NCBI GenBank assembly: GCA_020466095.1
Contig: CM035807.1
Location: 54,254,878 to 54,318,877 of the forward strand
Length of the DNA stretch: 64,000 bases
Direction of reading: 5' to 3'
From: Chlorops oryzae
Taxonomy: Eukaryota > Arthropoda > Insecta > Diptera > Chloropidae
Positions 3,314-23,884 of the stretch are shown one piece after another; the first letter of the stretch is position 1, and each line of letters opens with the position of its first letter. The position numbers and the translations under genes were made by a program. Under the pieces are notes generated by a model. That model was not told the origin of the DNA and made no database searches. It was given only the letters and a program-made list of their open reading frames with translations.

Positions 3314-3317
3314 CAGT
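3314..3317. repeat. Target site duplication CAGT, left side
   Basis: CAGT lies directly before the 5' LTR. The same four bases follow the 3' LTR at 23881-23884. A 4-bp duplication fits Ty3/gypsy integration and shows that both LTRs belong to one insertion event in spite of 20 kb between them. Confidence 0.9.
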
Positions 3318-3767
3318 TGTTGTGAGTCAACATTCGACTCACTATCATTCAATTATTATATATGATGGTCACCTTAACAAGCGCAGCAATAATCCAAAGA
3401 ATGAAATATAGCAACAAAATCGAAACAACAACAGCTCTAAACGATCCATGGGCATGGGCACTCAACAAGCCAAAGCAACAACAATTAGCAAACCGAGCTT
3501 CACTCCGGGTATTGAAGCATGATCAAGGTTGGCACGCGACAACAGCGGCAAACTATAGTTCCGATTGCAAGCGAATTCGGATGACACCTGGCCGGAAAGT
3601 GCAAATGCGGCAATTATGATAGCTGGTGAGCTCGAAAATCGATTGAGCGAAAGCAAATCGACAAGCACAGGTCAACTATTGCGACAGGTAGCGATTGGGA
3701 AATCGCTAAAGCGGTCAACATTGAACCTAAGCAGCAACTTCGGGAAAAATCGTATAGAATCACAACA
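3318..3767 (+). repeat. 5' LTR of the errantivirus, internally deleted
   Basis: It matches 23096-23536 of the 3' LTR with about 9 differences in 440 bases, then jumps to the last 15 or so bases (tatagaatcacaaca). About 335 bases present in the 3' LTR, at about 23537-23866, are missing. The breakpoint sits at a short shared cgt/gt-tatagaat sequence. The remaining ends TGTTGT and ACAACA form the usual LTR terminal inverted repeat. Confidence 0.92.
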
Positions 3768-3769
3768 TT

Positions 3770-3787
3770 ATTGGCGCTGCCGGTATT
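3770..3787 (+). other. Primer-binding site of the errantivirus
   Basis: TGGCGCTGCCGGTATTCG begins two bases after the LTR. A TGG start directly behind the 5' LTR is the mark of a tRNA primer site. TGGCGC-type sites in the 17.6/297 group are ascribed to tRNA-Ser; which tRNA primes here cannot be settled without the host tRNA set. Confidence 0.6.
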
Positions 3788-4276
3788 CGACTGCCTTTCA
3801 GTTGGATACGAACTAAGGCCCAAAACTTTCAACAGAGTTATCCTTTAAAGTTTTCCAGGACGGCGTAATAAAAACCGAGTTTTGTTGAAGCGGAGCTTTA
3901 ATTAAGCTTTAAAAAATTGGATATCAAGAACCGAAGAAGCCTTACTCAAAAATTCGTATGTCGAACAGCGAAGACCAGTAAGGTGGTTTAAAAAATATAA
4001 AATTGACAGGTGACGTTTTTTACGTAATCTGCAAATTTTTGAGAAAGTTTTAATCCTTGTAGCACAGTTTAAAAAGGTTCAGACGTTTTGATAAATTTTT
4101 TAGACTTAACTTGCTGAATTTTCTTCGAGAAAGTTTTTATCCTTGCAGTAAAAATATTTTTTTTGTACGCTTTGTGAATACAAAAAGGATAACATAACTA
4201 GAAAATTTTAAATATCAACGGTAGCAGCAACAGAAGAAACAAAAGGAAAAAAGAAATCATACGAGCAAACATCAAA

Positions 4277-4285
4277 ATGGTGAGT
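4277..4285 (+). promoter_or_regulatory. Candidate 5' splice site for subgenomic env RNA (ATG|GTGAGT)
   Basis: A leader ATG at 4277-4279 is followed at once by GTGAGT, a near-perfect donor. Errantivirus env is known to be made from a spliced RNA. Joining here to the acceptor at 11567-11568 would place this ATG in frame with the env signal peptide, which lacks its own start codon. This is inference from sequence fit. Confidence 0.5.
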
Positions 4286-4349
4286 AAAAAAATTTGAGCA
4301 ACATTTTTAACGCAAAGAGTCCTTCTTGTTGTGTACGGTTTTCAACTAA

Positions 4350-6523
4350 ATGGAAAAGGAATTAGGAATTTTGAAGCAAAAGGTTGCAGAATTCGAATCT
4401 GACAGTATTAGAATTTTGGAAGAAGCGCGAGAATTATTGCACGAGGTAAAGCTTTGTAAGAAAATTTCACAGTTAATTAGGGACCAGTTGGTGTTAGGGC
4501 AATTTTCGAAAATTGTAGAAGCAATATTTTTAATAAATCTGGTTAAAAATTCAGTAAACATAGGGGAAGAGAAGGAAAAATTGAGTAATTTGGAAGAGAC
4601 GGTGAAATATCTCAATAAAAATTGCAAGAAATTAAAACAGCAGATAGAGCAGAGCTACGCGTTAGCAGAGCAAGCAGAGAAAGAAAACGAGGATCTTAGG
4701 GAAGCCTTACGGAAAGCGGTAGGCAAAGGGTTAACTACAACTCTAGAACAGGATTATGCTGGGTTCATGCTTAGCCCTAAAAGCGCTTTTAGCGCATTTA
4801 GCTCTTAACGCGACTTTAAATGTGCTTTTAGCCATACAAAATTTGAAAGCTTAATGCAAGTAAAAGCAACTTCAATGTAGCATTAAGGCGAATGCAACTC
4901 TGCTAACTTCGAAAAATTTCATGTTTCGAACTATTTGACAGTACGAATATATGGCAGCACTGCTGGTTTGTTTACGTTTTTGCTGGTTTGTTTACGTTTT
5001 CCAGTCGTCACGCACAAGTTCTATTCCTAGTAAATAGTCTAATGTTTATGTAGTTCATTACACAATTTTGCACACCTTTGTATAAAGCGAGCAGTTGCAA
5101 AAAACTGGCACGCTTTTTGCTTATAGCACATATCGATGTTTTTAATTGTTCAATTTTGTTTAAATTGAACTGAATGGACAGGTATATCTGCACAATAAAT
5201 AAAATGAATTTCAGCCGACGCATTTCGATTTCTTTTTCATCAAATTAAAACAGGACAGTTGTTTTGTAAGTCGAGAACATATGTTGTGTGTAAAAGCACA
5301 TTTACTTAATGCGGCACTATGAACACTCTTCGAAAAATCGCTTTTCGAAAACCGTAAATGCGCTTTTAGGGCTAAGCATGAACATAGCATTAGGCAGGTC
5401 TTAAGGAAAAAGAAGAAGAGGTAAAACGACTAAGAAAGCAGATAACAGACTTAAAACAAGAGTTGAAAATAGTATATAGAGGTTCACCATCACCAACACC
5501 GGGTAGGAAATTAAAGCCAGTCAAAACCAATTTGAAGACGTAGGGAAACTGGGTGAATTTATAAAGAAAAATTTTACAAAGCACGGAAATTTAGAAACAA
5601 TTAGGTTTGAAATACAAAATGCTACGGAATTTTTAAACGAAAAAGCATCGTCTTATGGGGGAAGAATAGAATCCTTACTTAAAGAGGCAGAAAGGTTAAT
5701 TAAAGAATCATGGGAGGAGAATCAGGCGGTATCTGCACTTAGCGAATATAATTAATTAGCAAAAAATAGATTCATTTTCGGTATAAAGGATCGATTTATG
5801 CAACTTCGTTTAGAAGGACACAGGGACAAATCCTTCGCCTTTCTAATTAAATTGGCAGAAGACTCAGAAGATCTTCATGCAGAGAATATAAAATTTCATT
5901 CCAATAATTTAATTAGTGAAATCTGTAAGCCTTCGCCAGTTTTATGTTCGTTCTGCAATATAGCGGGCCATACACGCGATATTTGCCAGCAAAGAAGGAA
6001 TACCCCCTATTGTAAGGTTTGTTTCGAATACGGGCATGAGAGAACAGCTAAATGCGGTAGAACAGAACAACAACTCAGAGTTGATGACAGCAATTGCAAA
6101 TTTTGTGGAAAAAAGGGACATTCAGAGAGTAAATGTTTCGGAAGACTTAAAAGTTTATTTTGCAATGTGTGCAAACTAAAGGGACATGAAAGAAATAAAT
6201 ATTGTGCCAATCGGTTACAAGCACAGAGGGGCAGGCAGACCGGGAACCAAACCTATAACAGAACAGAAAGTTTTAACCCCAGATCATAGCAAAATTTTAA
6301 CCCATTCAGGACTCAAAATGGTGGCAACGAAAACAGGACACAACTTTTCGATCCTGCAATAAAATACAATTCAGGAAATTTTACAGAGGGTCAAAATCAG
6401 CAGCCTAACAATGTAAGATGTTTTAAGTGTTCACAATACGGGCACATGGCGAAATTTTGCAGGGCACAGCAAACAGGGCATAACGTTCAGGGAAACTCCC
6501 AACGGCCCGGTCAAGGCCATTAG
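4350..6523 (+). pseudogene. gag: Errantivirus gag, split by a MITE and frameshifts
   Basis: The N-terminal half (4350-4755) is a Lys/Glu-rich coiled coil (LNKNCKKLKQQIEQ) starting at the first good ATG. After the MITE the coiled coil resumes (KRLRKQITDLKQ, about 5428-5463) and then shifts frame near 5535. The C-terminal part (5798-6289) holds four CCHC knuckles: CSFCNIAGHTRDIC, CKVCFEYGHERTAKC, CKFCGKKGHSESKC and CNVCKLKGHERNKYC. After a stop at 6287-6289 a fifth, CFKCSQYGHMAKFC, lies at about 6418-6460, and a stop ends the frame at 6521-6523. Gag would bind and package the genomic RNA. Five knuckles are many for an insect gypsy-type Gag. Several stops and the insertion make it non-functional. 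Confidence 0.8.
4756..5390. mobile_element. Non-autonomous TIR element (MITE) inside gag
   Basis: The ends 4763-4786 and 5360-5383 are a perfect 24-bp inverted repeat starting gttcatgcttagccctaaaa. The similarity extends outward over seven more bases with two mismatches (ATGCTGG against ATGCTAT), giving outer limits 4756 and 5390. The interior of about 600 bases has no transposase. It holds repeated cgctttt/cgaaaa motifs and a local duplication of 'tgctggtttgtttacgtttt' at 4961-5000. I could not find a convincing target duplication, so the superfamily stays open. It interrupts the gag coiled coil. Confidence 0.75.
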
Positions 6524-6572: not shown

Positions 6573-7287
6573 TAACTTAAAAAAATATGAAGATTGGGAG
6601 GAACTAGATTTTAATAGAATTTATTTAGAGGAATATGAGGCGAAGGAGAAAATCAAGGAACCGATAAAATCAGAAAGCAGAAAGGAGCTGAGTTTAAAAA
6701 ATCAAAATTGCGATGAATATGAAAAAACCGGACAACCGACAATAACAGGAAACGAAAGCAAAATGAGTACGAAAATTAAAAATTCGAAGGAAGTCCAATT
6801 CAGAGATCCTTTAGTGCAATTAGTTCAAATAGAAGATGGGGAAAATACGAACGAGAAATTAGTTACTCATTGCAAAAAAGCCCCGAATGAAAATAAGACA
6901 ACAGAGCCAGTGTCAGACGACACGTTTATAGTACTCCCATGTAGACAGGCTATAAACGAAAAAATTATATTGTAAGTTGACACAGGTTCTGACACAAGTT
7001 TAATTAAAATAGAAGCCCTCAAGGACAACGATATTAATACGTCTGCGATAAGTCATTTAGTGGGTGCTTTTGGAGGGAAAATTGATAGTATAGGGACAGC
7101 AGAGGTTTCGCATTCGGAATATCCAGATTTGAAATTTAAATTGCAAGTATTACCAGCAGGAAGCAGGATTCCAGCAGATGGACTTTTAGGAAGAGATAAA
7201 CTTTGGTATAGGTCAATCATAGATTGTGTGGAAAAAGAAGTAGTTTTTGATCTCGGTGGGCGAATGGCAACAATATGTTACCATTAA
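6573..7287 (+). pseudogene. pol: Errantivirus pol N-terminus and aspartic protease
   Basis: An open frame from about 6573 gives an acidic, Lys-rich leader and then the retropepsin domain, with the catalytic motif VDTGSDTSL at about 6976-7002 and the flap-side motif DGLLGRDKLW near 7177-7206. The protease would cut the Gag-Pol polyprotein. A TAA stop at 6973-6975 lies directly before VDTGSD, and the frame ends at 7285-7287. The region starts some 50 bases after gag in another frame, as usual for gypsy elements using translational frameshifting. Confidence 0.75.
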
Positions 7288-7315: not shown

Positions 7316-8440
7316 TTGTTGCAGAGTCAACCACGATATACATTGACAATGGTTAGAAATGGAAGAGGTTTCGTACCAATAATGAATACGAATAATGAGT
7401 CCGTACAAGTGAAAGCGGGAATTGAATTAGATTTTGAGTTAGGATCGGATTTTGATGAACTAAAAGAGTCAACGGTAAACAATATAACTAAAAAGGGAAA
7501 AGATGAATAACGACTGAACTTATTATGGCAGTCAAATTAGATAACAAGCTAAACAAGGAAGAGCTTGATTCAATGAGAAATATTTTTAGAGATTACGCAG
7601 ACAGTTTTCATCTACAGGGAGACCATCTGTCTTATACGACAGTCTTGGAACATGAAATTCCCACAGCAGCGGAACACCCACCAATCAATTCGAGGCAATA
7701 TAGATTGCCTGAACAACATAGCAACGAAATTAATACGCAAGTAAAGAAAATGTTGATGATGATATCATCAAACAAAGTAAATCCCCGTGGAACTCGCCAA
7801 TAATTTTAGTCCCGAAAAAATCAGGTAAAGATAGTGAGAAAAAATGGAGACTTGTGGTGGATTTTAGAAAGCTAAATGAAATCACTATAAAGCAAGTTTT
7901 TCCAATTGAACGAATTGATGAGATCCTAGATCAGTTGGGATATAGTCGTTATTTTTCTACATTGGATTTAGCCAGTGGTTACCACCAAGATTTGGTAAAG
8001 GAGAAAGAAAGGAAAAAAACAGATTTCATCACTGGTTTAGGGTATTTTGAGTTTGCAAGGATGCCTTTCGGGCTACAAGGAGCTCCCGCAACTTTCCAAA
8101 GAATTATGAACAGTTTTTTAACAGGCCTGCAAGGAATTGACTGTTTCGTTTATTTAGATGACATCGTCATTTACGCAAGAAATGAATAACTTAAAGTTGC
8201 AAAGCGAAAAATGCAATTTCCTGCAAAAGGAAGTAATTTATTTAAGGGGTTTTGCCAGACCCCGGAAAGGTAGAATGCGTTAAAAATATACAGGCGCCAA
8301 AGAATATTAAGCAGCTACAGGCATTTTTGGGACTAGTTAATTATTACAGAAAATTCATACCCGATGCAGCGAAAATTTGTTTGCCTTTAACGAAATTATT
8401 AAGAAAAGAATCGAAATTTGTATAATCGTCCGAATGTCAG
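7316..8440 (+). pseudogene. pol: Errantivirus reverse transcriptase, broken
   Basis: Blocks in order are the pre-RT linker (7316-7510), IPTAAEHPPINSRQYRLPEQ (about 7659-7718), LVPKKSG (about 7808), VDFRKLNEITI (7857 on), FSTLDLASGYHQ, FARMPFGLQGAPATFQ, and the catalytic YLDD motif in CFVYLDDIVIY (about 8144-8176). After a stop at 8187-8189 come QAFLGLVNYYRKFIP and LTKLLRKESKF (to about 8420). At least four stops or shifts separate the pieces (near 7508, 7801, 8189, 8424). It would copy genomic RNA into DNA; this copy cannot. Confidence 0.85.
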
Positions 8441-8905
8441 AAGGCGATGGAACAATTAAAACTCGCTGTATCCAGTCCTCCAATACTTAGGTATCCAGAT
8501 TTTGAAAAACCTTTTATTTTAACAACCGACGCCAGCAATGAAGCGTTAGGAGCAGTTTTGTCCCAGGAGGAGCCAGGAAAAGATCTTCCAATATATTACG
8601 CCAGTAGAGCGCTCAGTGCCGCAGAAAGGCGATATTCTACTATCGAAAAAGAATTTCTGGCGATAGTTTGGGCAGTTAAGAATTTAAGGACTTATCTTTT
8701 AGGAGGACATTTTACGATTTATACTGACCACAAACCATTAAAAGCAATAGCTAATTTAAAGGATCAGGACACTAGATTAGGACGATTGCGTTTAAAATTA
8801 TTAGAATACGATTTCAAAATTTGTTACAAGCCAGGAAAGCACAACCCTAATGCAGACGCCCTGAGCAGAATTACACCCGCAGAAAATAAGGTCAGCGTAG
8901 TAACG
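8441..8905 (+). pseudogene. pol: Errantivirus RNase H domain
   Basis: The open frame beginning at 8447 contains FILTTDASNEALGAVLSQ (first catalytic Asp), ASRALSAAERRYSTIEKEFLAIVW (catalytic Glu in the IEKE stretch) and YTDHKPLKAI (next Asp), and closes with the connection LLEYDFKICYKPGKHNPNADALSRI. All the usual RNase H residues are visible. It would remove the RNA strand after minus-strand synthesis. The frame continues into integrase without a break until 9268. Confidence 0.85.
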
Positions 8906-9860
8906 AGAGCACAAAACATAGCTTTAAAAGAAAATTATAAAAGTTCCAGTGAGGAAATTGAGGGAATCTTGACGGATCCAGGGGATAAAAAAAGAGTTTT
9001 AAAAACTTTCCATGACACACCAATTGCGGGACATAAGGGATTCATGAAGACATATTTAAGAATCAGAAAACAATATAAATGGGAAGGCATGCAGCGCCAA
9101 ATTAGATCATATATTAAATCATGTAAACGATGTCAAAAAAATAAAAGCTCGAAGTCAACCAAAATGCCGATGGCTATCACAGACACCCCTCATAGACCAT
9201 TCGACAAAGTTTTTATGGACATAGGCGGCCTACTTCCAATCACATTAAGGGAAATAAGTATATCTTAACGTTCTTGGATGATTTTTCAAAGTATTTCGTA
9301 TGCGTTGCTATTCCGGATGCAGAAGCAACCACAGTAGCTAGATTTTTTTTCAATGAGATAATTCGAAATTTAATATTCCTAAATCATCGATTACAGATAA
9401 CGGTACAAATTTCACATCAAGAATATTTAGTGAAGTTTGTAAAATTCTTGGAATTAAAAAGTCGCATACCTCACCCTACCATCCACAAGGGCACCATTGC
9501 CTCGAAAGGAGTCATAGACCCCTTGCGGAATTTCTAAGAAATTTTGTCAACGAGGATGGCACGAGTTGGGATGAATGACTGCATTATGCTATGCATGTCC
9601 ACAATACTACAGTCCATTCATCAACAAAACAAACACCTAGCCGAACTCTTTTCGGTTTCGAGTTCGAAATTCCAATAAAATTAAAACACAAACCTTGCCC
9701 GTTGTACAATTTCGATGACTTTTGAAATATCAAATTCAAAGAAGTTATGAATTAGTTAGAAAAAACCAAATAGCTTCCAAAGAAAAGGCGAAAAAGGTTA
9801 ATGATAAAGACTGTAGAGAAGAAACTTTTAAAGTAGGGAATAAGGTATGGCTAAAAATAA
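8906..9860 (+). pseudogene. pol: Errantivirus integrase zinc domain and catalytic core, frameshifted
   Basis: The HHCC zinc domain is intact at about 9010-9155 (HDTPIAGHKGF...CKRCQKNK). The core starts with FDKVFMDIGG (first catalytic Asp, about 9220) and then breaks at 9266. FLDDFSKYFVC continues in another frame from 9270. Further shifts around 9365 and 9530, stops at 9535 and about 9576, and one near 9725 follow. The third catalytic residue lies in LERSHR (about 9502-9519, shifted frame). A last shift at about 9855-9870 leads into the frame that carries the GPY/F motif and the phosphatase. Integrase inserts the DNA copy; this one is dead. Confidence 0.8.
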
Positions 9861-10812
9861 AAATAAAACAAATAAATTTTCGCCCATTTGGGAAGGACCC
9901 TATGAGATAGTATCGATTCCTTCGGCATCAAATGTTCGTTTAAAAATTAAAGGCAAGGAAAAAACGTTTCATAAAAATTTGGTCAAATTAGAGCATAATG
10001 ATATAACGCTCATTAAGAACGTCAGGAACATCAAATTATACAAAAGACAAAATAATGAGTTGTTTACGAAAATAACTAAAAAGAATAAAGAAAAAAATAG
10101 ATATGATGACGTACCATGTTTCGATCGCAGCCGAGTAAAGTTAAAAGTCATAAATAAAAGCGACTCGGATTACATACACGCAAATTACGTGAATGGAGTG
10201 CATTGCCCGAATCAGTATGTAGCCACTCAATACCCATTAGTAAGCACAGTCAGTGATTTTTGGCGAATGGTTTGGGAAAAAAATTGTTGTAATATTGTCA
10301 TGCTAGCAGGTATGAACGAGAAAGGGTCTTCCGAGTATTGGGGAGAAAATGAAGGAGATGTGTTTCATTGCAAACATTTTAGTATAGAAGCAATAGGTAT
10401 CACGGTGGAGCGTAATTTTATCAGAAGCACACTGAGAATGAAAAACATTAATATGGGAGAAGAACGTGTTATTGACCATTGGCATTTCCGTTCATGGCCG
10501 GATGGGCAAACACCAAATTCCGACCACATTTTAGAATTTTGGGTTAAAGTCCGAGAACATCAAAAGTCAGCAGAAAAGAACAGTACTAATTACCCTAGGT
10601 TAATGATACATTGTAGAGCGGGTATAAACAGAACTGGCATCGCCATAGCACTAAACATCGCGCTTTCAGCCTCAGAGGCAGGCCAACAGATTGATATTCC
10701 AAAAGTAGTGGAAAAAATACGAGACCAAAGGGCATACGCTATAATCTGCAAGAAACAACGTAACTTCCTCTATGAACTACTGACAGCGTTCTCAAGGCAA
10801 TATGCTACATAA
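9847..10812 (+). CDS. Integrase C-terminus (GPY/F) fused to a protein tyrosine phosphatase domain
   Basis: This is one uninterrupted 321-residue frame. Residues 13-45 are the integrase GPY/F module (WEGPYEIV...FHKNLVK). After a Lys/Asn-rich linker (46-80) comes a complete classical PTP domain: KNRYDDVP (83-90, pTyr loop, Tyr86), DYIHANYVNG (108-117), TQYPL (127-131, usually TQGPL), DFWRMVWE (137-144), the WPD loop (217-219), the P-loop HCRAGINRTG (255-264, nucleophile Cys256 and Arg262) and a Q-loop-like KKQRNFLYELL (302-312). The enzyme would hydrolyse phosphotyrosine. It is the longest frame of the element, while the neighbouring pol regions are riddled with breaks. Methionine 1 is only the first ATG of the open stretch; the natural product would be the tail of Pol. 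Insect bracoviruses carry PTP genes of similar type, so the donor could be host or viral. Confidence 0.85.
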   Translation: MAKNKNKTNKFSPIWEGPYEIVSIPSASNVRLKIKGKEKTFHKNLVKLEHNDITLIKNVRNIKLYKRQNNELFTKITKKNKEKNRYDDVPCFDRSRVKLKVINKSDSDYIHANYVNGVHCPNQYVATQYPLVSTVSDFWRMVWEKNCCNIVMLAGMNEKGSSEYWGENEGDVFHCKHFSIEAIGITVERNFIRSTLRMKNINMGEERVIDHWHFRSWPDGQTPNSDHILEFWVKVREHQKSAEKNSTNYPRLMIHCRAGINRTGIAIALNIALSASEAGQQIDIPKVVEKIRDQRAYAIICKKQRNFLYELLTAFSRQYAT

Positions 10813-11340: not shown

Positions 11341-11568
11341 AAAAAAAGGCGTGAACATTTTAAAAACGGTAAAAGTACGCGATTTAACCAATTATGATAT
11401 CACCATTGAATATATAGACACAGAGTTGCGTGATCAGGGAATATTTGAACAGAAAAATAATAATCAAAATAAAATTTTTTTTTCAAAGTGTCCAGTTTGC
11501 ATGGTCAGGGAATATGAAAATGCAACCAATGTCAGCATAGTGAGTTAACAATAGCACTACATTTTCAG
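11341..11568 (+). other. Pre-env region with 3' splice site at 11561-11568
   Basis: A short open frame (to 11548) with no known domain resumes retroelement sequence after the antisense ORF. CTACATTTTCAG (11557-11568) is a good pyrimidine-rich acceptor. The sequence from 11569 reads straight into the env signal peptide, in frame with the env ORF. Errantivirus env is normally expressed from a spliced RNA, which fits this position. Confidence 0.5.
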
Positions 11569-12366
11569 ATAATTCTGGTCACTTTCTTACTCATCACAAC
11601 CACTCAAGGGAGTCCGGTGGTATCCCCAATTAACGAACAAAAAGGCTTGATTGAAGTTCACATGTTCAACACAGAAATCGTAAAGGAGTCAGCCACTATT
11701 CTGCACATAATTCATCCACAAGAAATTATAGGTATGCTTAATTCTATGGAAGAATACATAAATGAAATAATCGTTTACAACAAATTATTGTTATTAAGCG
11801 AAATTAATACGAACAAGTTAAAAGTGCATTCCCTAACCCCATTCGAGCAAAAGAGAGTGAAAAGAGGTTTAATAAACGCAGTGGGCACAGCAGCCAAATG
11901 GTTATTCGGGGTAATGGATGATCAGGATAGACAGGAAATAGAAAGCCCCATTAAAACCTTGGTGGAAAATAACCATTACACGATAGAGGGACTTAATGAG
12001 CAAATAACCAAAACAATCATTTTAACACTACACTCGGAGTATTGAAAGCCGCAATAGACGAGGATAGACAATTTATTAACACCATAGATTCCAGAAACCG
12101 GAATATTTCAAACCACCAAATGTTCAAATATCAAATGTTTAAATTTAAAAGTATTGAAAACAAATTAAACCTCATTCAAGATAGCATAGCAGCAGCAAAA
12201 AAGCGGTGTAATTCACCCAAGCATTTTAACATCGGAAGAGATAGAAAAATTTGAAATCGATTTTTTTCAAATTGAAATTTATTAGGGTCGGAATATTGTC
12301 CCATACACAAAATTCAATAATAATAGTGGTAAAAGTCCCACGAAATCTGATACAGACAGAAGTAAG
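11569..12366 (+). pseudogene. env: Errantivirus env, first part (signal peptide, furin site, fusion subunit start)
   Basis: From the acceptor the frame starts with a hydrophobic signal sequence (IILVTFLLITTTQG) lacking its own ATG. The furin-type site RVKR is at 11854-11865, followed by GLINAVGTAAKWLFGV, the fusion-peptide-like start shared by insect F-type proteins. A frameshift near 12030 moves to the frame of 12042-12254, and another shift or stop follows near 12220-12285. The protein would be a membrane glycoprotein on the particle. The mdg1-type insertion at 12366 cuts it in the coding region. The description is of a broken endogenous copy. Confidence 0.8.
12363..12366. repeat. Target site duplication TAAG, left side
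   Basis: TAAG directly precedes the nested element and is repeated at 19653-19656 directly behind it. Counting it once restores the reading frame of env across the insertion, which confirms that the nested element landed in an env that was still in frame at this point. Confidence 0.9.
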
Positions 12367-12917
12367 TGTAATTAAAAGTCTTTTGGTTGATTTGTTTTAA
12401 TTACTTTATTTATTTTTAGTTTTAAAATCATAGTTGATTCTCTGAGACTTATGTAAGACTGATGTAAGACTGATGTAAGACTGATGTAAGACTGATGTAA
12501 GACTGATGTAAGACTGATCTCTAATCTAGGTTTTTACAATTCTTTTATAACCAAGAGCACACATGCTTTTGGCCATGTGCGCAGTTTTCTTGCGGAAGGT
12601 CGGTGTCACGTGTGCGTTGCACATTTCAAACTTACTTGGCCCGCATTAGCTCGTACTTGACATGCATTGCTCATTAGGTCAAAGAATAAGAACCGAAAGA
12701 AGAAAGCGAAATATGTAACTTGATATTTGAATTGAAGGTATGCCATATTTGGCAATATTGCTTTGCTCCAATTAAATGTTAATAATTAAAGGTGAGTCAA
12801 AGCAATTCTGGTCAAAGACAAAACAAAGTGTAGCTTGATTTGATGTCAAGCGCATTCGATTTGGAAATGTTTTATATGTCTTTCGTAGGTTCTCTTGTGC
12901 TTCATTTTTCCATGACA
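12367..12917 (-). repeat. 3' LTR of the nested element (left copy, 551 bp)
   Basis: It matches 19124-19652 with about four substitutions. The length difference of 22 bases is exactly two units of an 11-bp tandem repeat (gatgtaagact): six copies here at 12451-12518, four in the other LTR. Ends are TGTAATTAAAAG and CCATGACA. Confidence 0.92.
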
Positions 12918-13281
12918 CCTCTCTTTTTGAAAGAAAAGTTTTTATCTTTTTGAAAAAGTTTTCTTGTGTTAATTGTAATTCATTCTTACTTTTAATAGAA
13001 AAATGTTATTAATTATATATATAATTCATTCTTATTATTATTATTTTTTTTTTTTTTAAGAATATGTAGTCATTGTAATGTTGTTAATAAAATGTTTAAT
13101 GATAGAATATATTATTTTATCGATATACTTGTTAAACAAAAGTTAGTTTGTCGTGCACGACTTATTGAAAATTAAAGGTATTTTATGCTGGTTTAATTCT
13201 ATTCTTATGTACAATTTGCGTTTTAGAACCTAAATCAAGCTTACAATTGCCTCTTACATCTAATTCTAATACTTTATATGG
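12918..13281 (-). other. Polypurine tract (12918-12928) and 3' untranslated region
   Basis: Read on the minus strand, AAAAAGAGAGG directly precedes the 3' LTR and is the plus-strand primer tract. The rest of this stretch, up to the integrase stop, is AT-rich with an ATTATT/T-run (about 13031-13060) and shows no coding potential. It resembles the 3' non-coding part of mdg1-type elements. Confidence 0.7.
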
Positions 13282-14569
13282 TCATTTAAATATATGGTCT
13301 AACTTGTGACTTGTTTCGTCCTTAAGGTAAACCATGTCATGTATCTTAAGTTTGGCAGGGTTGCATGTCTTGTCATAATTGGTTTTAGACGTGAGTTTGG
13401 ATTTATCTACCAGCCTTTGTGGTCTTTGATGTGCTTCTTGTAACCTAAATTTCAGTTCTTTTTCATATAAATCGTAATTATATACAGGATCACTTTTTTT
13501 GTTTGTTGTGAATTCAAATATAGTTGGACTTTTGCCATATACTAATTCAAATGGCGCAAAGCCATGAGCAGTTGATGGTGTAGTGTTATAACAATAGACG
13601 AAATATTTCAACCATATATCCCAATCAGACCTATCTATCGAGAGATACGATCTAACATATTCGTTAAAACTTCTATGACTTCTTTCAATCATTCCTAAGG
13701 TCTGGTGGTGATATGCTCTTGAAGTGGTATGTTCGATTTTTAATAGTTTGCATATTTCTGAGAAAACACTATTTTTAAATTCTGTACCCATATCAGTTAA
13801 TATTTCTTTGACAGGACCGTATATCAAGATACAATTGTCGACTATTGCACTTGCTACGGTTTTTGCCGATTTGTTCTGCAAAGGAACTGCGATTAAATAT
13901 TTTGTTAATTCACACATGATAGTAATGGCATATTCACTATTGTTAAGTGTAACTGGTAAGGGAGCTATCGTGTCTATTTGAATTTTTTCAAACGGTTTTG
14001 AAGGTGTGGGTACTGGTGTTAAAAGTTTTTTAACATGTTTACCTGGTTTTGTTTTTTTGCATAATTCGCAAGATTTCACATATAATCTTATGTCTTTCAT
14101 AAGATTTTTCCAATTATATATTCTTCGAATTTTCTTGGCAAGTCTGTGTATTCCTGGATGTCCACCTAGGATAGAATCATCATGGAATTGTTTCAAAATT
14201 CTTTGTCTTTCAAGTGCACTTGTAATTGTTATAATTTTTGGAGTGAATATTATGGTCACGTTCCTTAAAATTTTATTTCCTACGGTTTTGACGTCATATA
14301 TGCTTGTATGTTTGAAAAAATTATCATTTAGCGAAATCCGCAGATTTTTAATTCCTAAGTTGTCAACTAATTTCTCAAGTTTTGGAAATAATTGTTCTAA
14401 AACGATTTTTCCATGAACAACAAGGGTGCTAATGTCTTCTTCTAGGACTAAAATTTTTCCTGTATAAATTTGTATAGCGCGCTTTTCTTCATTATATTTC
14501 ATACAAGCTATTTTATTAATGCCTTCATAATTTATTGATTCATAAATTTGAAGTTTTGGTGATTGTTCA
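13282..14569 (-). pseudogene. pol: Nested element integrase
   Basis: The frame of 406 residues (14502 to 13282) holds the HHCC zinc domain (HDDSILGGHPGIHRL...CELCKKTK), the catalytic core with Asp in KIQIDTIAPLP, Asp in LTDMGTEFKN and Glu in GMIERSHRS, and a C-terminal VYLKDE segment. The catalytic triad is intact. It is in a different frame from RNase H, with the shift between about 14502 and 14620, so the polyprotein is interrupted. The domain would insert the cDNA. The frame's own start is only the first Met. Confidence 0.88.
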
Positions 14570-15795
14570 TTATGGGCTGTATTTTTTTTTTTCGGATACT
14601 TGTTGTGATTTTTCCGACTCTCTTGTCTTGGACCTTGTGATTACTTGCATAATGTTTTTACGTACCACACCGATTTGTTTTATTTCTTCAAAGTCAATGC
14701 GTGACAGTGCGTCTGCACCGCAATTATCTCTTCCTTTTATGTACTCTACTACGAAGTCAAATTCTTCCAAATCTAACCGAATTCTAGATAGTTTGGATGA
14801 GGGGTTTTTGAGGGTGAATAGGTGCGTGAGTGGTTTATGATCACTCTTAACAAGAAATTTTGTTCCGTAAACATAAGGTTTAAAGAAATTTATGGCCCAG
14901 TGTATGGCTGTGAGTTCTTGCTCAATTACAGATTTATTGCTCTCTCCTTTTGTAAATGTGCGTGATGCGAATGCGATCGGTAGCTGAATACCATTATGAT
15001 CCTGACTGAACACTGCTCCACATGCTATCTTACTTGCGTCAGTTGTTATGCAGAATTGCTTGTCAAAATCTGGATATTGCAAAATTTGAGGTTTTAACAG
15101 TGAATTTTTCAGATAAATAAAGGCTTCGTCACATTCTTTTGTCCATAAAACTTCAGAATTTTTTCTTGTTAATCGTGTTAGATGTATAGAATATTTTGAA
15201 AAGTGTTCTATAAATCTTCTATAATAGTTCACAAATGCAATGAAGCGGCGTGCCTCATCAGCGTTGGTTGGTTTAGGATAATTCAATACTTTATCAAATT
15301 TTGATTCATCAGGGAGTATTCCTTTGTCAGTACATTTGTGACCTAAGAAAGTTACTTCTGAATTAAAGAAAACACATTTTTCTGCATTTAATTTCAAATT
15401 TGTTTTGCGGCAGATTTCAAACACTTCTTTAAGGTTTGAAATCATATGCTGCTCAGAACAACCTATTACAATCAGATCATCCATATACATGAATGACTTG
15501 CTTGGTCCTAAGCCTGCGAAGGCTAGAGACATCATACGTTGGAACGAATTAGGGGCTATTTTGAGACCGAAAGGAAGTCTTTTGAATCGAAAAGATCCTT
15601 GATTACTAGAAAAAGAGGTAATATCTCTTGAATTCTCATCAAGCTCTATTTGATGAAATCCAGATAAAAGGTCTAGGCAAAAAAATAGTTTTGCTCTACC
15701 GAGCTGATCAAGAATGTCATCAATTCTTGGTAGTGGAAATTTGTCTGCCATAAGCCTTTTGTTTACCTGACGGTAATCGATAACGAGTCTCCATT
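14570..15795 (-). pseudogene. pol: Nested element reverse transcriptase and RNase H
   Basis: The 393-residue frame (15751 to 14570) carries PLPRIDDILDQLG, FFCLDLLSGFHQIEL, RLPFGLKIAPNSFQR and the catalytic SFMYMDDLIVIG. It is followed by the thumb region (FLGHKCTDKGI, FVNYYRRFI) and RNase H with FCITTDASKIACGAVFSQ, IEQELTAIHW and KSDHKPLTHL, ending near GADALSRIDF. All catalytic residues are visible. A frameshift in a T-run near 15788-15798 separates it from the protease part. The tail beyond about 14640 is out of its natural frame. Confidence 0.9.
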
Positions 15796-16781
15796 TTTTT
15801 TTCTCTACTGCCCGGTAATGACTTCTTCGGGACCAATAAAATAGGGCTGTTATATTCAGATGCAGACGGTTCTATTATTTCATCATCAATAAGTTTCTGT
15901 ACATGTTTTTCTATTTCTGGTTTCTGAGACTGAGGTAATCTGTAATTTTTTATATAAACAGGAGTGCTATCATTCAATTTTAAGTTTTGCTTATAAAAGT
16001 TATTGCATGTGACTTTATCTGTGCTGATTGCGAATGTGTCTGTATAGTCAGAACATAGTTTGAGAAGTGCTTTTCTGTATTGTAGCGGACAATTTTGGTT
16101 TACCTTATTTAAGATTATGGATTTTCTCTCTTCAGTTTCTACGGTAGACGAAACTGTAAGTACATTGTAATCATTTAAGCTTTCGGCTTTAATTTCATAT
16201 TTTTCTAAGAATATGTTTTCATCGGTAGTATTAAGTATTTTCACATACGAAGTCTTACGGTTACTTATTGTGTTTGACACGAAAATTCCTTTAGCTAATT
16301 CTTGAGTCGGGATTAAAAATTCGTTCTCGTCAAAATTTACTTTAATTTTTCTGACTACCTCTGATCTTGCTGGCAAAACAATGGTATCATGTTTTGGTGA
16401 GTCAAAAATTTCTGTGAAAATCTGTTTGTGAGTAAAATGTGGTCTTAATATTAACCAAGTATTGTCATATAGCTGATAATCAAGTACACAATTGAATTTT
16501 TTTATGAAATCATAGCCCACAATACCATCACAAGGTATTGGAAACGAATCATCGACGACATGAAAAATGTGATTAAATTCAAAATTAGAAATAATAATTG
16601 AATTTTGCATACATCCAATAGTTAGAAGTGTTCCTTCACCAATTCCATTTAATTTATATTTATAATTTATGTTAATTCTGTTTAAGTCATTTACTAGTTT
16701 TTGCTTAATTATACATATATCGGAACCCGTATCCAGCAAATACATATGAGAGGAATTATTCGAAGAAGAATTCATCAACAC
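15720..16781 (-). pseudogene. pol: Nested element protease and RT N-terminus
   Basis: The 353-residue frame opens with the retropepsin motif LLDTGSDICII (residues 15-25) and DGIVGYDFIKKF. A long linker follows, then the RT entry block IIEPSASEYNSPILLVPKKSLPG near 15815-15885. The frame then runs off into meaningless sequence because of a one-base shift just after GSREKK. It overlaps the gag end by a -1/+1 step, consistent with translational frameshifting in this clade. Confidence 0.85.
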
Positions 16782-16816
16782 ATAATTGCTTAGTTTAAGG
16801 TTGATATTAAGTATAG

Positions 16817-18094
16817 TTAGTGTTGATTGAATTCCCCCAACGATTGCTGGGGAACCGGCACGTTTTCCGGCACCGATTCTAAAGCTCGTAGATTTTGTGC
16901 GCTTGGTCTTGAATTATTACCATTGGCGTTGTTATTATAGTTATTGTGCTCCCGGTAATTATTTCTTCCCCTATTATAGTTATTATTCCGATTACTGTTA
17001 TTATTATTAGCATTATTATTATACTGATTATTGTAATGATTGTACTTACGGCCACGATAAGATCGATTGTAATTTCCTCGACTTCTACCTCTAAAGTTTG
17101 GGGCGTTATGGCGCACATAAATAATGCTTTGTATTTCGTTACTTTCGGTTGAGAGCTCAAAAAATTTTGTGACTGCTTCTCCAATTGTCGTAAAATTACC
17201 CCCCTTCATGAGCAATCTAGTCTCTGCTGATCTAGCATTAGTAGACAAGGTTTTTACAGCAACATCTGTTGCATATTTAGATGCTATAAGAGGTGGTAGA
17301 CCGTCTGCTATGTAAGCATTCTCAAGGTTTAAAGTTAAATTTTCTATTTCTTTAACAAACGTTGTATTGTCTTTATTATTTTGTTTAACTGCTAACATTT
17401 TTGATGCTAAAGATTTTGCTGATTCTCCTTTTATAGATGATTGTAGGGCATTTTTAATGTCAGCTATTGAATTTAAACTATTTATAATATTAAGAGCTCT
17501 ACCTGTAACTTTAGTTTTAATGTATCAGAGTGCTATTGCCTCATTGGTTTCCTTTAGGGAATCTACTAAATCAAGAGAGTTAATAAAGGAGCTCAGCTTA
17601 TCAGCTGTGCTATCAAATTCAGGTATGAGTTTTGAAATCAAATTTAAAAATTCTACTGGAGTAATTTTAGAATCTTGTGGCTTTGGAGGAGGATTTTCGG
17701 AATTGACTCTTTGTCCTTCTATTGCATCGATCGTCTTAATGTCAGCTTCTTGATCGTCCTCTTCCTCTATGAAAGAAAGATGTAATGATTTGTTATAGTC
17801 CTTTGGCACTTCACTTCTTATTTCTAATTTATTTAATACATAGCATAATTTGTCTTTCGCTTCCTGAAAGTGTTTTTCAGCTTGCTCCCTATGTGTATCG
17901 GAAAGAATAGGTAGAAATGCATTAAGGGTGGCTGCAATTGTGTTTTGCTGCAGTACTATATTATTAAGATGTTTTGCTTGAATCTGTTCAGAAGGTAAAC
18001 TACTTTTATTCAAAGCTCTATAAGACTTATTGAATTCCTTAATAATTGATTGTAATTGAAAGTGTAAATTATCCCATTTAGTTGGACTTGACAT
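16817..18094 (-). pseudogene. gag: Nested element gag, one nonsense codon
   Basis: The start MSSPTKWDNLHFQLQ (18094) opens a capsid-type, helix-rich frame. The C-terminal end is strongly Asn/Arg/Gly-rich (RGNYNRSYRGRKYN and NNNANNNNSNR repeats, about 16900-17100), a basic nucleic-acid-binding tail that replaces zinc knuckles, as in the mdg1/412 group. A TGA at 17525-17527 is the only break; both sides are in the same frame, and it looks like a CGA-to-TGA change. Gag would form the particle and bind RNA. Confidence 0.88.
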
Positions 18095-19108
18095 TGGTAT
18101 AGTATGTTTTTAGACTGTAGTTGTATACTTCTTTTTAAGACTTTTATGAAAAATTTTATAGATCTTATAAAAAAAACTGTACCACAACCACAAACGTGCA
18201 TATATAATATATAAACATATTTTGATGTCAATATTAACTATTGAGGATTGAGGTACTTTAATTTCATTAATAATGTCTCCCAAATTTTCAGTTTTTTGAT
18301 TCTTATCAAACATTGTGAGATAATATAATGGCTGCGTTCATTAGACTTTAAAGTAAAGGTAAATCAACAAAGAGCACAAAGACATGCATCCAAATATGTC
18401 AGTCAGTCGTTTATGTGACAGTAAAAATTTTATTTTTCATTTATTTATTTTTGTTTTTCTGTTTAAAAATAATGTAATGAGAAGTGGTTTTTTGTATATA
18501 TCTATCTACATTTTGATTTCATATCCGTAAATGGAAATAAAGTAATCAATAAAAAAAAAATATCTACAATTTTTAAACCTGATGTTTAGTTGGCATCCAT
18601 ATTGATGGTCAGCTTCATGTTGCTGATGACTATCTTGATGTTAAAATATGGGATCGATGTTGGTGACAGCTTTATGTTGTTGATGATTGTCTTGCTCGCT
18701 AATGAACACTGTCATCGAAAAAAAAAATCACAATTTTAACCTTTTTAGTGCTCCACTATTTGTATTGCAGCTGTATTTTTCTTTATTGTTTGTATTTAAT
18801 TGGTCCTTTGTAATTTTGTTTTATTTTGCTTTCTATTTTTTATTTTTCATTTTGTATGCACTAGATTTTCAATAAGTTCATCTGCAGTCAATTGAATTTC
18901 TTCTTGACTTTGTTATTCGTTGTTACTTTTTAAATTGTTTTAATATTTTCAACACTATCCAATGTCCTCAATAAAGTTTCTTAATTAGGAAGTTTACAAA
19001 TTCCGATTCAAAATCCATTATATAAAAGCGTTTATGATATTTGTCCCAATGTTGGCACCATTTATTTAATGTCTAATTTATTTAACGGTTTATTTTAATT
19101 TTCAAATT
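18095..19108 (-). other. Leader of the nested element, no gene
   Basis: About 1 kb of AT-rich untranslated leader lies between the primer-binding site and the gag start. Short open frames here show no domain. A long leader is usual in mdg1/412-type elements. Confidence 0.6.
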
Positions 19109-19123
19109 TGGCAAGGATCGCCA
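19109..19123 (-). other. Primer-binding site of the nested element
   Basis: Read on the minus strand, TGGCGATCCTTGCCA starts directly at the inner end of the 5' LTR. A TGGCGA start is what the mdg1/412 group uses with tRNA-Arg; the exact tRNA is inferred. Confidence 0.65.
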
Positions 19124-19652
19124 TGTAATTAAAAGTCTTTTGGTTGGTTTGTTTTAATTACTTTATTTATTTTTAGTTTTAAAATCATAGTTGATTCTCT
19201 GAGACTTATGTAAGACTGATGTAAGACTGATGTAAGACTGATGTAAGACTGATCTCTAATCTAGGTTTTTACAATTCTTTTATAACCAAGAGCACACATG
19301 CTTTTGGCCATGTGCGCAGTTTTCTTGCGGAAGGTCGGTGTCACGTGTGCGTTGCACATTTCAAACTTACTTGGCCCGCATTAGCTCGTACTTGACATGC
19401 ATTGCTCATTAGGTCAAAGAATAAGAACCGAAAGAAGAAAGCGAAATATGTAACTTGATATTTGAATTGAAGGTATGCCATATATGGCAATATTGCTTTG
19501 CTCCAATTAAATGTTAATAATTAACGGTGAGTCAAAGCAATTCTGGTCAAAGACAAAACAAAGTGTAGCTTGATTTGATGTCAAGCGCATTCGATTTGAA
19601 AATGTTTTATATGTCTTTCGTAGGTTCTCTTGTGCTTCATTTTTCCATGACA
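19124..19652 (-). repeat. 5' LTR of the nested element (right copy, 529 bp)
   Basis: It is the partner of 12367-12917, with four copies of the 11-bp gatgtaagact unit against six in the other LTR. Because the element reads on the minus strand, this right-hand copy is the promoter-bearing 5' LTR. TAAG duplication follows at 19653-19656. Confidence 0.92.
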
Positions 19653-19877
19653 TAAGCCTAATTACACAAATTCCTAATAGAGAATTTTTCGAAATAATGA
19701 CAAATGACGAATTAGTGACCGAAATAGAGCAGCAAATTTTCACGTCCAGAGAAAACGCCATCTTAAAAGAATTGAGGAGAAGTCAACACTGTGCTGTTCA
19801 AAATAATTGCAATTTCATATTTAATAACAAAACATTTGTCCAATATATCGATGAAGGAACTATAATATTAAACAAGT
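19653..19877 (+). pseudogene. env: Errantivirus env, middle part
   Basis: Env sequence resumes directly after the nested element, with open reading from about 19660 through 19877. The stretch contains CAVQNNCNFIFNN (two cysteines typical of the ectodomain) and a hydrophilic region. It is cut off at about 19877 by the INE-1-like insertion. No break is seen inside this piece apart from the two insertions. Confidence 0.75.
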
Positions 19878-20774
19878 AAGAAAGCTAAAGTCGGTCAAGC
19901 CCGACTTTGAAATACCCAGCGTGCCGACATTATGAGCGCACTATAACTTGCTTCTCTATTTGTGGGCGTGGCAGTGAGAGGACAACATAAATTATTTCCC
20001 TAAGCCTTTCATTCGCCTTGGTGAACCTATGTTGCGAATTTGGAGCTTCTACGCCTTTTACTTCGGAAGTTGCGAAAAATCTTCATTTGTGGGCGTGGCA
20101 GTGGGCGGGCCACATAAAATTTTTACCTACACCTTTCATTCGCCTTGGTGAACCTATGTTGCGAATTTGAAGCTTCTACGCCTTTTACTTCGGAAGTTAT
20201 GAAAAATCTCTATTTGTGGGCGTGGCAGTGGGCGGGCTACATAAATATTTGTTCCTACACCTATCATTTGCCTTGGTCAACCTATGCTGCGAATTTGAAG
20301 CTTCTACGACTTTTACTTCACAAGTTACGATAATCCCATATTTTTGGGCTTATTTGTGGGCGTGGCTCGAGAAGGGCGGCGGCTATTTTTTTTACCAGGA
20401 AATGTCCCTTTTTGTAGTTCACCAGCACACCAAATATCAATGGAATGTGTTGAGTGGTTCGCAAGTTACAAGCATTTTACTGAAAACAATAAATTCATTT
20501 GGGGCGTGGCAGGGGGCGGATGTCTCCCATTTTTACTTAGGATCATACTCGGACCCCGGTATACATGTGTGTCAAATTTCGACTTCATTGGTTCAGCCGT
20601 TTCGGAGGAGGTCCGACCACGGACGGACGGACAGACGGACATGTCTAAATCGATTCAGTTTTTGTTCCTGATCATTTCTATATATATATTTTTTTCTATA
20701 TCTCCGGAGCTTAATTCTCCCTGTTACAAGATTTGCACAAAACTAATATACCCTGCTTACGCTGGGTATAAAAA
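19876..20774 (+). mobile_element. INE-1/DINE-1-like (Helitron-related) repeat in env
   Basis: The left end CAAGTAAGAAAGCTAAAGTC resembles the fragment at 27349, and the right end is ACCCTGCTTACGCTGGGTAT. The interior has a GGACGGACGGACAGACGGAC run (about 20621-20640) followed by ATGTCTAAATCGATTCAG, the hallmark of INE-1-type repeats in flies. It has no coding capacity of its own; long frames here are accidental. No target duplication is visible, as expected for Helitron-like insertion. It interrupts env between two parts that both read as env. Confidence 0.6.
19961..20510 (+). repeat. Tandem repeat array (~127-bp units) inside the INE-1-like element
   Basis: TGTGGGCGTGGC-type starts occur at 19961, 20088, 20215, 20355 and, degraded, about 20501. 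The first three units are 127 bases apart and share the blocks 'ttcattcgccttggtgaacc' and 'gaagcttctacgcctttta'. Later units are longer and more diverged. Internal tandem arrays are common in INE-1/Helentron relatives. Confidence 0.85.
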
Positions 20775-21228
20775 CGCCAACGAACTGAAGATAAGCCAAA
20801 CTTGCGATAAGAGAGACATAAGTGTAAAGAATAACGTCTTCATAACCTTTTCAAACTGCAGTATCACAATTGAAAACGAGAAATTTTTTAACTCTCAAGC
20901 GGTAATGGAGGAAAGGTATTTTTATCCAGTTAAACAATTTAACTTTAACAACAAACCAATAGTTTTCGAAGACATAATAGTGAACAGCTTTAAAAATAGA
21001 CCCTACATATAAGAATTGAAATTTCATCAGAACGTGTCTTATGGTCTCAGTGGTACCCTTCTCTTTTTGATCATAGCAATTCCATTAGCATGCGTCATAG
21101 TTTTAAAAAGGAAATCCATAAAAGTAGAGGTGAAACAGGAAGTAGCAAAGGATAATGTACGAAGGAAGAAAAGCATGAGAACGATTTTAAAACGTTACGA
21201 AGCATCAGAGGAAACGGAAGAGGTATAA
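20775..21228 (+). pseudogene. env: Errantivirus env, C-terminal part with transmembrane anchor
   Basis: Env reading resumes at about 20775. It contains a potential glycosylation site and cysteine (NCSITIEN), then a TAA stop at 21010-21012. In the same frame a single membrane span follows (SGTLLFLIIAIPLACVIVL, about 21046-21102) with a basic cytoplasmic tail (KRKSIKVEVKQ, RRKKS) ending at 21226-21228. The order of ectodomain, anchor and basic tail is standard for insect F-type envelope proteins. The premature stop removes the anchor. Confidence 0.8.
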
Positions 21229-21733
21229 GCCGACGTTTTCAGACTTTTTGCACGACCCTCGTACAAGCGAACCAATGTGGGTTAAGTCAAGTCAGCAGTA
21301 GCGAATAATAAAATTTCTTTTTCGAGAATAAGACTATTTCCCCACAACCTTTTCCAGAAATGCAGAGTAGAAAGAAAAAAAAAAAAAAAAACTAAATAAA
21401 AACTTTTGCGCAAGAAAAGCCAAATTTAAATTATTGTAGTTCGTGATTTAATACCGCAGCGGAAAGTACTACAATTAAAAAAAAAAAAGGGATAAAGAAC
21501 ACAGAACCCAGAATAATTACAAGAAGGAATCTAGGCGGACTAATTAACATATTTGTCTCATTTAAGGCGAAATTCTTTTGGAGAAAGTAATCGGCGTAAC
21601 GATTTTGTAAGTATAGTTAATCACGTTTAATTTTCAGGACAACTCTTACAACTTAAATATTTAATTTTTAGTCGAATTGTTCAGTGTTCTTCCTTTTGCG
21701 GGGATCAAATAAGAAAATAAAAACAAACAAAAA
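21229..21733 (+). other. Non-coding spacer between env and the Ulp1-like ORF
   Basis: AT-rich sequence with A-runs at about 21378-21392 and 21477-21488. No coding frame is seen. A pyrimidine-rich stretch before an AG (TTTTTAGTCG, about 21665) could be a splice acceptor for the following ORF, but this is only a possibility. Confidence 0.45.
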
Positions 21734-22274
21734 ATGTCAGAAAAACATTTATGTTATCCTTCGATCGGAAAAAGAGCAACAGAAATAACACGGCAAGACT
21801 ACAATACACTAATAAACAACCAGTGGTTGGGAGATACGCACATCAATGTTTTTTTTAGATTGGATATTAAAAAGGCGTAGTTCCGTGGTAGAATTTGTAC
21901 ACATTTTCAGTTCTTTTGCGTACACGGGAATTAGGGCAGCTTTAGATTCAACGAAAGATATAGCAGAGCTACGAATTCGAACAATCATGAAAAGCATTGA
22001 TGTAGGCAAAATAAAAATTTGGATGTTTCCAATATGCGTGAACAACAACTGGATGTTGGTAATTATGCAGAATAAAATAATTCATGTGTTGGATTCTCTC
22101 CAACCGCACGATTACAGGGAGATCGCATCCAACATTGCAAAATACAATAGTCAATTAATACTAGAGCATTTTATCTTTCCACAATGTCCGAAACAAAAAA
22201 ATCTTATAGACTGTGGGATATTTGTTTTACAATTTGCGGAGGGTTTTTTCCACAAAGTTGGAGGAAAACACTGA
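21734..22274 (+). pseudogene. Ulp1/SENP-like (peptidase C48) domain ORF, frameshifted
   Basis: Starting at ATG 21734 the frame gives the C48 entry block (ITRQDYNTLINNQWLGDTHI). A run of eight T (21849-21856) then shifts it into the frame of 21846-22274, which continues the fold. Counting from Met 21846: NNNWML (66-71, canonical N-x-HW), VLDSLQ (81-86, catalytic Asp83) and CPKQKNLIDCGIFVLQF (114-130, oxyanion Gln117, nucleophile Cys123). Ulp1/SENP enzymes remove SUMO from proteins. The catalytic His position holds Asn68, one base change away. The ORF lies between env and the 3' LTR in the sense of the element. Such a domain is not part of known errantivirus gene sets as far as I know. Confidence 0.75.
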
Positions 22275-22311
22275 AATTTGTAAAAATGGAATTATATCAT
22301 AGTTAGGGAAA

Positions 22312-22536
22312 ATGAAAATAACAAGATGCGTTCTAGCTAAATTAATAAAGAGTTGGAGTCAAAACACAGAGGACCAAGAAGTATCATCAGAAGAATGGGA
22401 ATGTCTAAGAGAAATAATAAAGAAATGACGTAGTAAGAAAAAACGTAATATAAGAGACAAAATATATTTAAACGGTAAATCCTTCAGATTGACCGTAGAT
22501 TTTGCAAAAAAATTTAAAATAGAAAGACTAAACTAA
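22312..22536 (+). pseudogene. Small ORF after the Ulp1-like domain, one internal stop
   Basis: From ATG 22312 to TAA 22534-22536 runs a 74-codon stretch with a single internal TGA near 22426. Composition is charged (SEEWECLREIIKK, then RSKKKRNIRDKIYLNGKSFR). It could be a C-terminal extension of the protease ORF in another frame or a separate small protein. I do not recognise it; that it reads sensibly through nearly all its length is the only support. Confidence 0.35.
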
Positions 22537-23081: not shown

Positions 23082-23095
23082 AAAAGGGGGAGGGA
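23082..23095 (+). other. Polypurine tract of the errantivirus
   Basis: AAAAGGGGGAGGGA lies directly before the 3' LTR and would prime plus-strand DNA synthesis. A near copy 76 bases upstream is described with the preceding tail. Confidence 0.85.
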
Positions 23096-23880: not shown

Positions 23881-23884
23881 CAGT
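23881..23884. repeat. Target site duplication CAGT, right side
   Basis: Identical to 3314-3317, directly behind the 3' LTR; it closes the errantivirus insertion. Confidence 0.9.

Follow-up and report, generated by a model that had tools for sequence, protein, structure and literature searches.

A protein tyrosine phosphatase domain joined to the integrase end of Pol in an env-bearing Ty3/Gypsy family of Chlorops oryzae

The fused frame and its provirus

The stretch of DNA analyzed here, called the window, is 64,000 nucleotides long and comes from the fly Chlorops oryzae (assembly GCA_020466095.1, contig CM035807.1, positions 54,254,878 to 54,318,877). It holds a retroelement in which the integrase end of Pol continues in frame into a protein tyrosine phosphatase (PTP). 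The fused frame lies at 9844..10812 on the plus strand and comprises 322 codons without a stop, leading from the GPY/F tail of the integrase, SPIWEGPY(EIV...), through a basic linker into a full classical PTP domain. The PTP domain (10084..10782, plus strand) matches PF00102 with an E value of 1.5e-63 over residues 80-312 of the fused frame and profile positions 1-232 of 234, and its motifs are KNRY, WPD and the P-loop HCRAGINRTG. An earlier note, made from the letters of the window, had read an in-frame fusion of an integrase end to a complete PTP at this place, and the open frame, the domain match and the motifs bear it out. The longest open run after shuffling the bases of the segment was 141 codons (2000 shuffles, any of three frames), against the 322 observed. 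The Pol-PTP fusion in the window is real and not a chance frame. No poly(A) or duplication flanking the PTP part was seen by eye, a short one not having been searched for.

The fused frame had also been described as the longest of its element within a broken pol, and both statements hold. Longer frames nearby belong to a nested element on the minus strand, and the tblastn pieces of pol change frame near 7755, 8185, 8246, 9250, 9720 and 9850.

The enclosing element (3318-23880) lies between two long terminal repeats (LTRs) with 97.9% identity across 436 aligned bases, and the same 4-bp duplication CAGT stands on both sides (3314..3317 and 23881..23884). The 5' LTR (3318..3767, plus strand) begins with TGTTGTGAG, ends with CAACA and aligns to 23096-23531 of the 3' LTR (23096..23880, plus strand); the 5' LTR is presumably the shorter one through an internal deletion. 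The primer-binding site TGGCGCTGCCGG (3772..3783, plus strand) is what we take to be a tRNA-Ser-like site. At this position stands TGGCGCAGCCGG in three full-length copies, with the similar TTGCCGCAGCCGG in a fourth. The polypurine tract AAAAGGGGGAGGGA (23082..23095, plus strand) has a near-identical counterpart preceding the 3' LTR in four other copies.

All coding regions of the element lie on the plus strand. The broken gag region (4096..6435) was found by its open frame and by alignment of its DNA with L069, a 5' piece from another copy, and CCHC-like knuckles were seen by eye at 5756-6289. The protease region (6976..7287) is an open frame with VDTGSDTSLI, read by eye in a piece without Pfam match. 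It is followed by the frame-broken reverse transcriptase (RT; 7543..8244; PF00078, 5.9e-21, and tblastn pieces), by RNase H with the zinc-binding domain of the integrase (8246..9244; PF17917, PF17919 and PF17921, and a tblastn piece), and by the integrase core and C-terminal region (9250..9907; tblastn pieces), which is frame-broken until 9844. Behind the PTP, the first part of env (11563..12379) was assigned by tblastn to env of other copies and by a Baculo_F match (PF12259, 1.3e-7) in the frame 11518-12045, and the second part (20770..21300) by the similarity of its DNA to env in L059. The nested Ty3/Gypsy-type element lies inside env on the minus strand (12367..19652; LTRs 12367-12917 and 19124-19652, 95.3% identical), and no PTP was found among its frames that were scanned. 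Additional repeats within the window element occupy about 19870-20770. A fourth open reading frame (ORF), broken, encodes an Ulp1/SENP-like C48 protease (21731..22524), as judged from a PF02902 match (2.9e-8, 21816-22274) and tblastn to the C48 ORFs of other copies.

The order RT-RNase H-integrase, the LTRs, the primer site and the polypurine tract are those of Ty3/Gypsy elements (Metaviridae), and the window element is a decayed provirus of a large env-bearing, errantivirus-like family of this group. Insect errantiviruses and other env-bearing Ty3-Gypsy elements include gypsy, ZAM and 297. The family shares with the errantiviruses the LTRs, 4-bp duplications, a tRNA-type primer site, the gag-pol-env order, a Pol of the order RT-RNase H-integrase with a GPY/F tail, and an Env related to Baculo_F. 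It differs from them in the continuation of Pol into a PTP, in the C48 protease as a fourth ORF, and in LTRs with the beginning and end given above. Placement in Errantivirus is plausible for a comparison in which named errantivirus Pols were absent.

Distribution of the fusion and conservation of the phosphatase

Copies in which integrase and PTP are joined were sought in the genome along the line proposed in the earlier note. A search with the fused protein, in which 124 of 1288 candidates were scored, found 162 matches across the 442-Mb genome, and many of these lie in long open frames. Two match lists merged by hand contain at least 172 distinct PTP-bearing places in several subfamilies, a lower bound that covers only the best-scoring candidates among the matches listed; the fusion is thus heritable and multi-copy. 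Fifty loci were examined; a strict GPY/F motif is present in 42, and in 32 the frame stays open for more than 240 codons from this motif, in 31 of these for at least 305 codons. In one piece (L051), RT, RNase H, integrase and PTP are all in one frame. The linker varies in length, with 68-95 residues from the GPY/F tryptophan to KNRY (29 copies). The LTR pairs (500-839 bases) are 99.6-100% identical in four of the seven copies in which 5' and 3' pieces were compared, and therefore these lineages moved recently. Of these four copies, three show a 4-bp duplication, one of the three only when the LTR end is moved by a single base. The Pol-PTP fusion is almost certainly a trait of the family. One copy (L038:7-3762 with L062) lacks the end of the PTP, and its frame continues from RNase H through integrase and PTP into env; it is treated as a private deletion chimera.

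A PTP-less query gave 108 integrase matches, 69 of which adjoin a listed PTP and 39 do not. Open frames of 1507-1849 residues contain 27 of the 69, and the longest open frames with no PTP listed beside them group at 1307-1367 residues, with two outliers of 1484 and 1619. Two of the 39 matches were read directly; in each, a stop closes the frame shortly behind GPY/F, and the 851-base piece contains no PTP beyond it.

The ratio of nonsynonymous to synonymous substitution rates (dN/dS, omega) among copies, which had been suggested as a check, was calculated for the PTP part. Omega was 0.08-0.38 in ten bootstrapped pairs, with upper limits of 0.36-0.72; these pairs were picked from 49 listed, share sequences and are not independent. 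For the integrase, omega was 0.05-0.07 in five pairs with integrase dS above 1 and 0.28-0.41, much like the PTP, in three pairs of low dS. In L034/L035, the one pair whose dS is near 1 for PTP and integrase alike, omega is 0.24 for the PTP and 0.07 for the integrase. The PTP is kept under purifying selection, and the comparison implies that it is constrained perhaps less than the integrase.

In all 36 open PTP domains, which come from the 50 loci with broken domains not counted, the CX5R motif retains both its Cys and its Arg. The WPD aspartate is kept in 35 of the 36, the exception being L050 (WPG), where the copy is interrupted by a stop ahead of the PTP. The element PTPs have the PF00102 domain and the KNRY, WPD and CX5R motifs of classical PTPs, and they are probably active phosphatases.

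History and donor of the phosphatase part

Two proteins from contigs labelled jgi, P0126 (1622 residues) and P0127 (1789 residues), combine protease, RT, RNase H, integrase and PTP in one protein and are 50-55% identical to the query over integrase and linker. The Pol-PTP layout is thus probably not limited to the source genome. The nearest PTP-less Pols, P0125 and P0128-P0133, end within about 70 residues of GPY/F. All of these were obtained in a protein search with integrase and linker, among the best 120 of 168 matches, in which most Pol matches are nameless and the remainder come from aphids or fish or carry generic labels. The 321-residue piece as query returned two nematode PTPs only, in a search whose length limit the long Pols exceed. 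With the PTP region as query, nearly all, if not all, of the best 120 of 6942 matches are receptor-type PTPs, judged by their names or domain content. Scans of IMG/VR found no relative. Four aphid proteins (P0167, P0168, P0171 and P0176) have integrase and Baculo_F Env domains annotated in one protein.

In a PTP tree, the 18 element PTPs, including P0126 and P0127, form one clade against 16 cellular domains with support 97/94, and this clade is present in 98% of 200 bootstrap trees; the cellular sample is mostly of receptor type and does not include PTPN9. In the Pol trees, the PTP-bearing rows are strongly clustered without being one clade, with P0125 and P0129 falling inside. A single clade of PTP-bearing Pols was rejected (p-AU 0.0003), and one that includes P0125 was weakly rejected (p-AU 0.039). 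Therefore, the idea of one clade was replaced by that of one gain with losses or exchange.

Exchange is directly visible in the copies L008, L004 and L026, where the PTP part moved between subfamilies by recombination. L008 is 95-99% identical to L004 over integrase, linker and the first part of the PTP, and 59-78% over the rest of the PTP; downstream of the PTP, identity is 82% just behind it and 90-100% further on. Over the exchanged stretch the PTP of L008 is 92-97% identical to that of L026, whereas integrase and linker are only 59-85% identical. In line with exchange, L004/L005 compared with L010/L011 have a PTP dS of 0.09-0.17 vs an integrase dS of 1.7-2.4. The trees and the recombinant copies suggest a single capture of a PTP that would have been followed by loss and exchange of the PTP part. 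In the L046 copy, a short remnant just downstream of the PTP stop (L056:40-246) resembles, as read by eye, a second PTP C-terminal end.

As regards the donor, the best single-domain solved PTP by profile is PTPN9 with 243.7 bits, the next type having 208.9 and LAR domain 1 having 206.5. The margin is smaller with the window protein alone (141.7 vs 133.3). A template-free fold model from a six-row alignment (mean predicted local distance difference test score, pLDDT, 72.5; poor in the linker) has PTPN9/MEG2 as its first match in PDB. In the fold search, human PTPN9 is 33% identical to the element PTP and the best named polydnavirus PTPs 31-32%, and two nameless viral proteins rank above the latter among viral folds. 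The donor was perhaps a cellular PTP of the PTPN9/MEG2 type, the nearest solved single-domain PTP by profile and by fold, which at about 33% identity shares the catalytic motifs. PTPN9 carries an N-terminal CRAL-TRIO/Sec14 domain. No domain of this kind was met in L051, P0126 and P0127, whose Pfam matches are retroviral and phosphatase-type domains plus a sub-threshold transposase-type match. In contrast to PTPN9/MEG2, the element PTP sits in Pol without that N-terminal domain, and its P-loop is altered in several subfamilies.

The earlier note had also raised a link to the PTP genes of bracoviruses, and this link was not shown, since PTPN9/MEG2 and the polydnavirus PTPs are about equally close. 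The polydnavirus PTPs (bracovirus and Glypta-type ichnovirus) resemble the element PTPs in being borne by viruses of insects, in their 31-32% identity and in frequent variant active sites, and differ from them as free-standing genes of wasp-borne DNA viruses.

The C48 protease, the proposed role and its alternatives

The ORF behind env, about 270-320 codons long, matches PF02902 (Peptidase_C48/Ulp1) with E values of 2.1e-20 to 6.2e-12 in four copies (L055:3003-3908, L060:3356-4279, L061:1970-2785 and L063:3083-4042). It is present in eight of ten downstream (3') pieces, once as a fragment, and four of these eight supplied the C48 query sequences. Env was found in seven of the ten, once as fragments, with a Baculo_F match in the window and in L060; L058 and two copies in which both LTRs are present yielded no env. 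In L054 and L056 (5' pieces L064 and L066), the LTRs are 99.8-100% identical and Pol-PTP is kept, and neither env nor C48 was found. The nearest solved chains to the C48 ORF are SENP7, then SENP1 and Ulp1. A His, an Asp, a Gln and a Cys, which we take to be the catalytic residues, are conserved in five aligned ORFs of 38-96% identity. The PF02902 match and these four residues are common to the element ORF and the Ulp1/SENP proteases, SENP7 being the best match, whereas the element version is a separate ORF behind env of a retroelement. The protease would probably remove chains of the small ubiquitin-like modifier (SUMO) from host proteins, for example in SUMO-dependent silencing guided by PIWI-interacting RNAs (piRNAs). 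This link is suggested because Piwi silencing in Drosophila is SUMO-dependent (PMC7272611). The C48 ORF is possibly as interesting as the PTP.

The explanation that we consider likely is that the PTP is a captured domain of Pol, kept under selection as a family trait and acting on host signalling. An ancestor of the family would have captured a cellular PTP as an extra C-terminal domain of Pol, and the Gag-Pol polyprotein would be synthesized with the PTP as its final domain. Either freed or tethered to the integrase, the PTP would then be packaged with the core, and such carriage by Gag-Pol into particles is moderately probable. The active enzyme would act on phosphotyrosine proteins of the host in producer or newly entered cells, and on balance a host protein seems a better candidate for its main target than a viral one. 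Possible targets are JAK/STAT, other immune or growth signalling, or host factors touching the integrase. A wider idea, which we hold only tentatively, is that an insect endogenous-retrovirus lineage uses a Pol-tethered PTP and a SUMO protease as particle-borne or early effectors against antiviral signalling and SUMO-dependent piRNA silencing, with the PTP as an exchangeable cassette in an arms race.

Several observations weigh against the explanation favored here. Over all 49 pairs (dS 0.03-1.5), PTP omega ranges from 0.07 to 0.57 and is highest at dS below 0.05. The P-loop residue after the Cys is variable (S, N, K, R, M or A), E replaces the P-loop G in L005, WAD stands for WPD in L004 and in the lineage L039-L041, and the Q-loop glutamine is not kept in all lineages, so some lineages could be weak or inactive. 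Furthermore, PTP-less sister Pols exist both among the genome copies and in the protein database. These sisters are different subfamilies, which implies loss or exchange rather than a private PTP, and their persistence implies that the PTP is not required for transposition in every lineage.

The active-site variants also lend weight to a PTP kept as a binding or structural module, that is, a pseudo-phosphatase, a phosphotyrosine trap or an integrase-stabilising tail. Polydnaviruses offer a precedent, in that only a subset of their PTPs is catalytically functional and the inactive ones are suggested to trap phosphorylated proteins (PMC3573978). Set against this are the invariant CX5R residues (36 of 36) and the nearly invariant WPD aspartate (35 of 36), and we think a purely non-catalytic use unlikely. 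The enzyme could instead act on the proteins of the element itself (integrase, Gag or Env), as its position beside the integrase, on a linker of 68-95 residues in 29 copies, might indicate. PTP-less sister Pols speak against such a function, and both the higher omega of the PTP in L034/L035 (0.24 vs 0.07) and the exchange of PTPs between subfamilies fit an outward-facing target a little better; the element's own proteins are an unlikely main target.

Other alternatives concern the origin of the domain. If different subfamilies had each captured a cellular PTP independently, this would agree with the Pol trees, where a single PTP-bearing clade is rejected; that pattern is explicable by exchange and loss, and the element PTPs form one clade, although against a narrow cellular sample, which makes repeated capture quite improbable. 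Passage of the PTP from or to a polydnavirus (bracovirus or ichnovirus) would be consistent with the place of polydnavirus PTPs among the closest viral folds, together with the two nameless viral proteins that rank above them, whereas human PTPN9 is as near by fold and the best single-domain chain by profile; we regard such a transfer as very improbable. A private accident, in which a host PTP exon or retrocopy came into one dead element and the frames were joined by chance, has in its favor that the window copy is broken upstream. It was dismissed because the fusion recurs at at least 172 places, in several subfamilies, and because LTRs and CAGT enclose the whole element; P0126 and P0127 come from other contigs, too. 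The sister copies and the 2000-shuffle control refute both the private insertion and the chance frame, whose probability is negligible.

We know of no LTR retroelement described with a PTP in Pol. The earlier note had said the same, and no Pol-PTP was found among the papers listed on errantiviruses, LTR elements, Pol or integrase together with tyrosine phosphatase, a sample that covers few subscription papers and is not proof of absence. Two recent papers on insect endogenous retroviruses make no use of the word phosphatase in their main text, and no description of an Ulp1/SUMO protease in gypsy-type elements was found in the literature searched. Plant LTR elements with additional ORFs (aORFs) reportedly carry extra genes along with gag-pol; extra cargo is common to them and the present family, and the searches made turned up no account of a Pol with a PTP or of an env-bearing element with a C48 ORF. 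Retroviruses capture kinases as oncogenes, and in the present family, which was active recently, an enzyme of opposite action has become fixed in the replication polyprotein and is under selection there. The domain content suggests that captured enzymes may have changed host regulation. Together, the PTP and the SUMO protease ORF make it testable whether insect endogenous retroviruses encode counter-measures to piRNA-guided, SUMO-dependent silencing.

Some minor observations lie outside the element. A region at G000:C3:87.5-87.8 Mb, where several stretches resemble COX1 but contain TGA codons and a tRNA cluster lies close by, is probably a large mitochondrial insertion; its tRNA order, A-R-N-S-E-F, is presumably the ancestral insect order, which excludes rearranged groups only. 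In the window, fragments at 895-1759 (plus strand) with DUF5641 and a sub-threshold integrase zinc-binding match perhaps belong to a BEL/Pao element. Mariner-like transposase frames were seen by eye at 25306-26367, 35829-36890 and 47600-48685 on the minus strand and at 41847-42913 on the plus strand.
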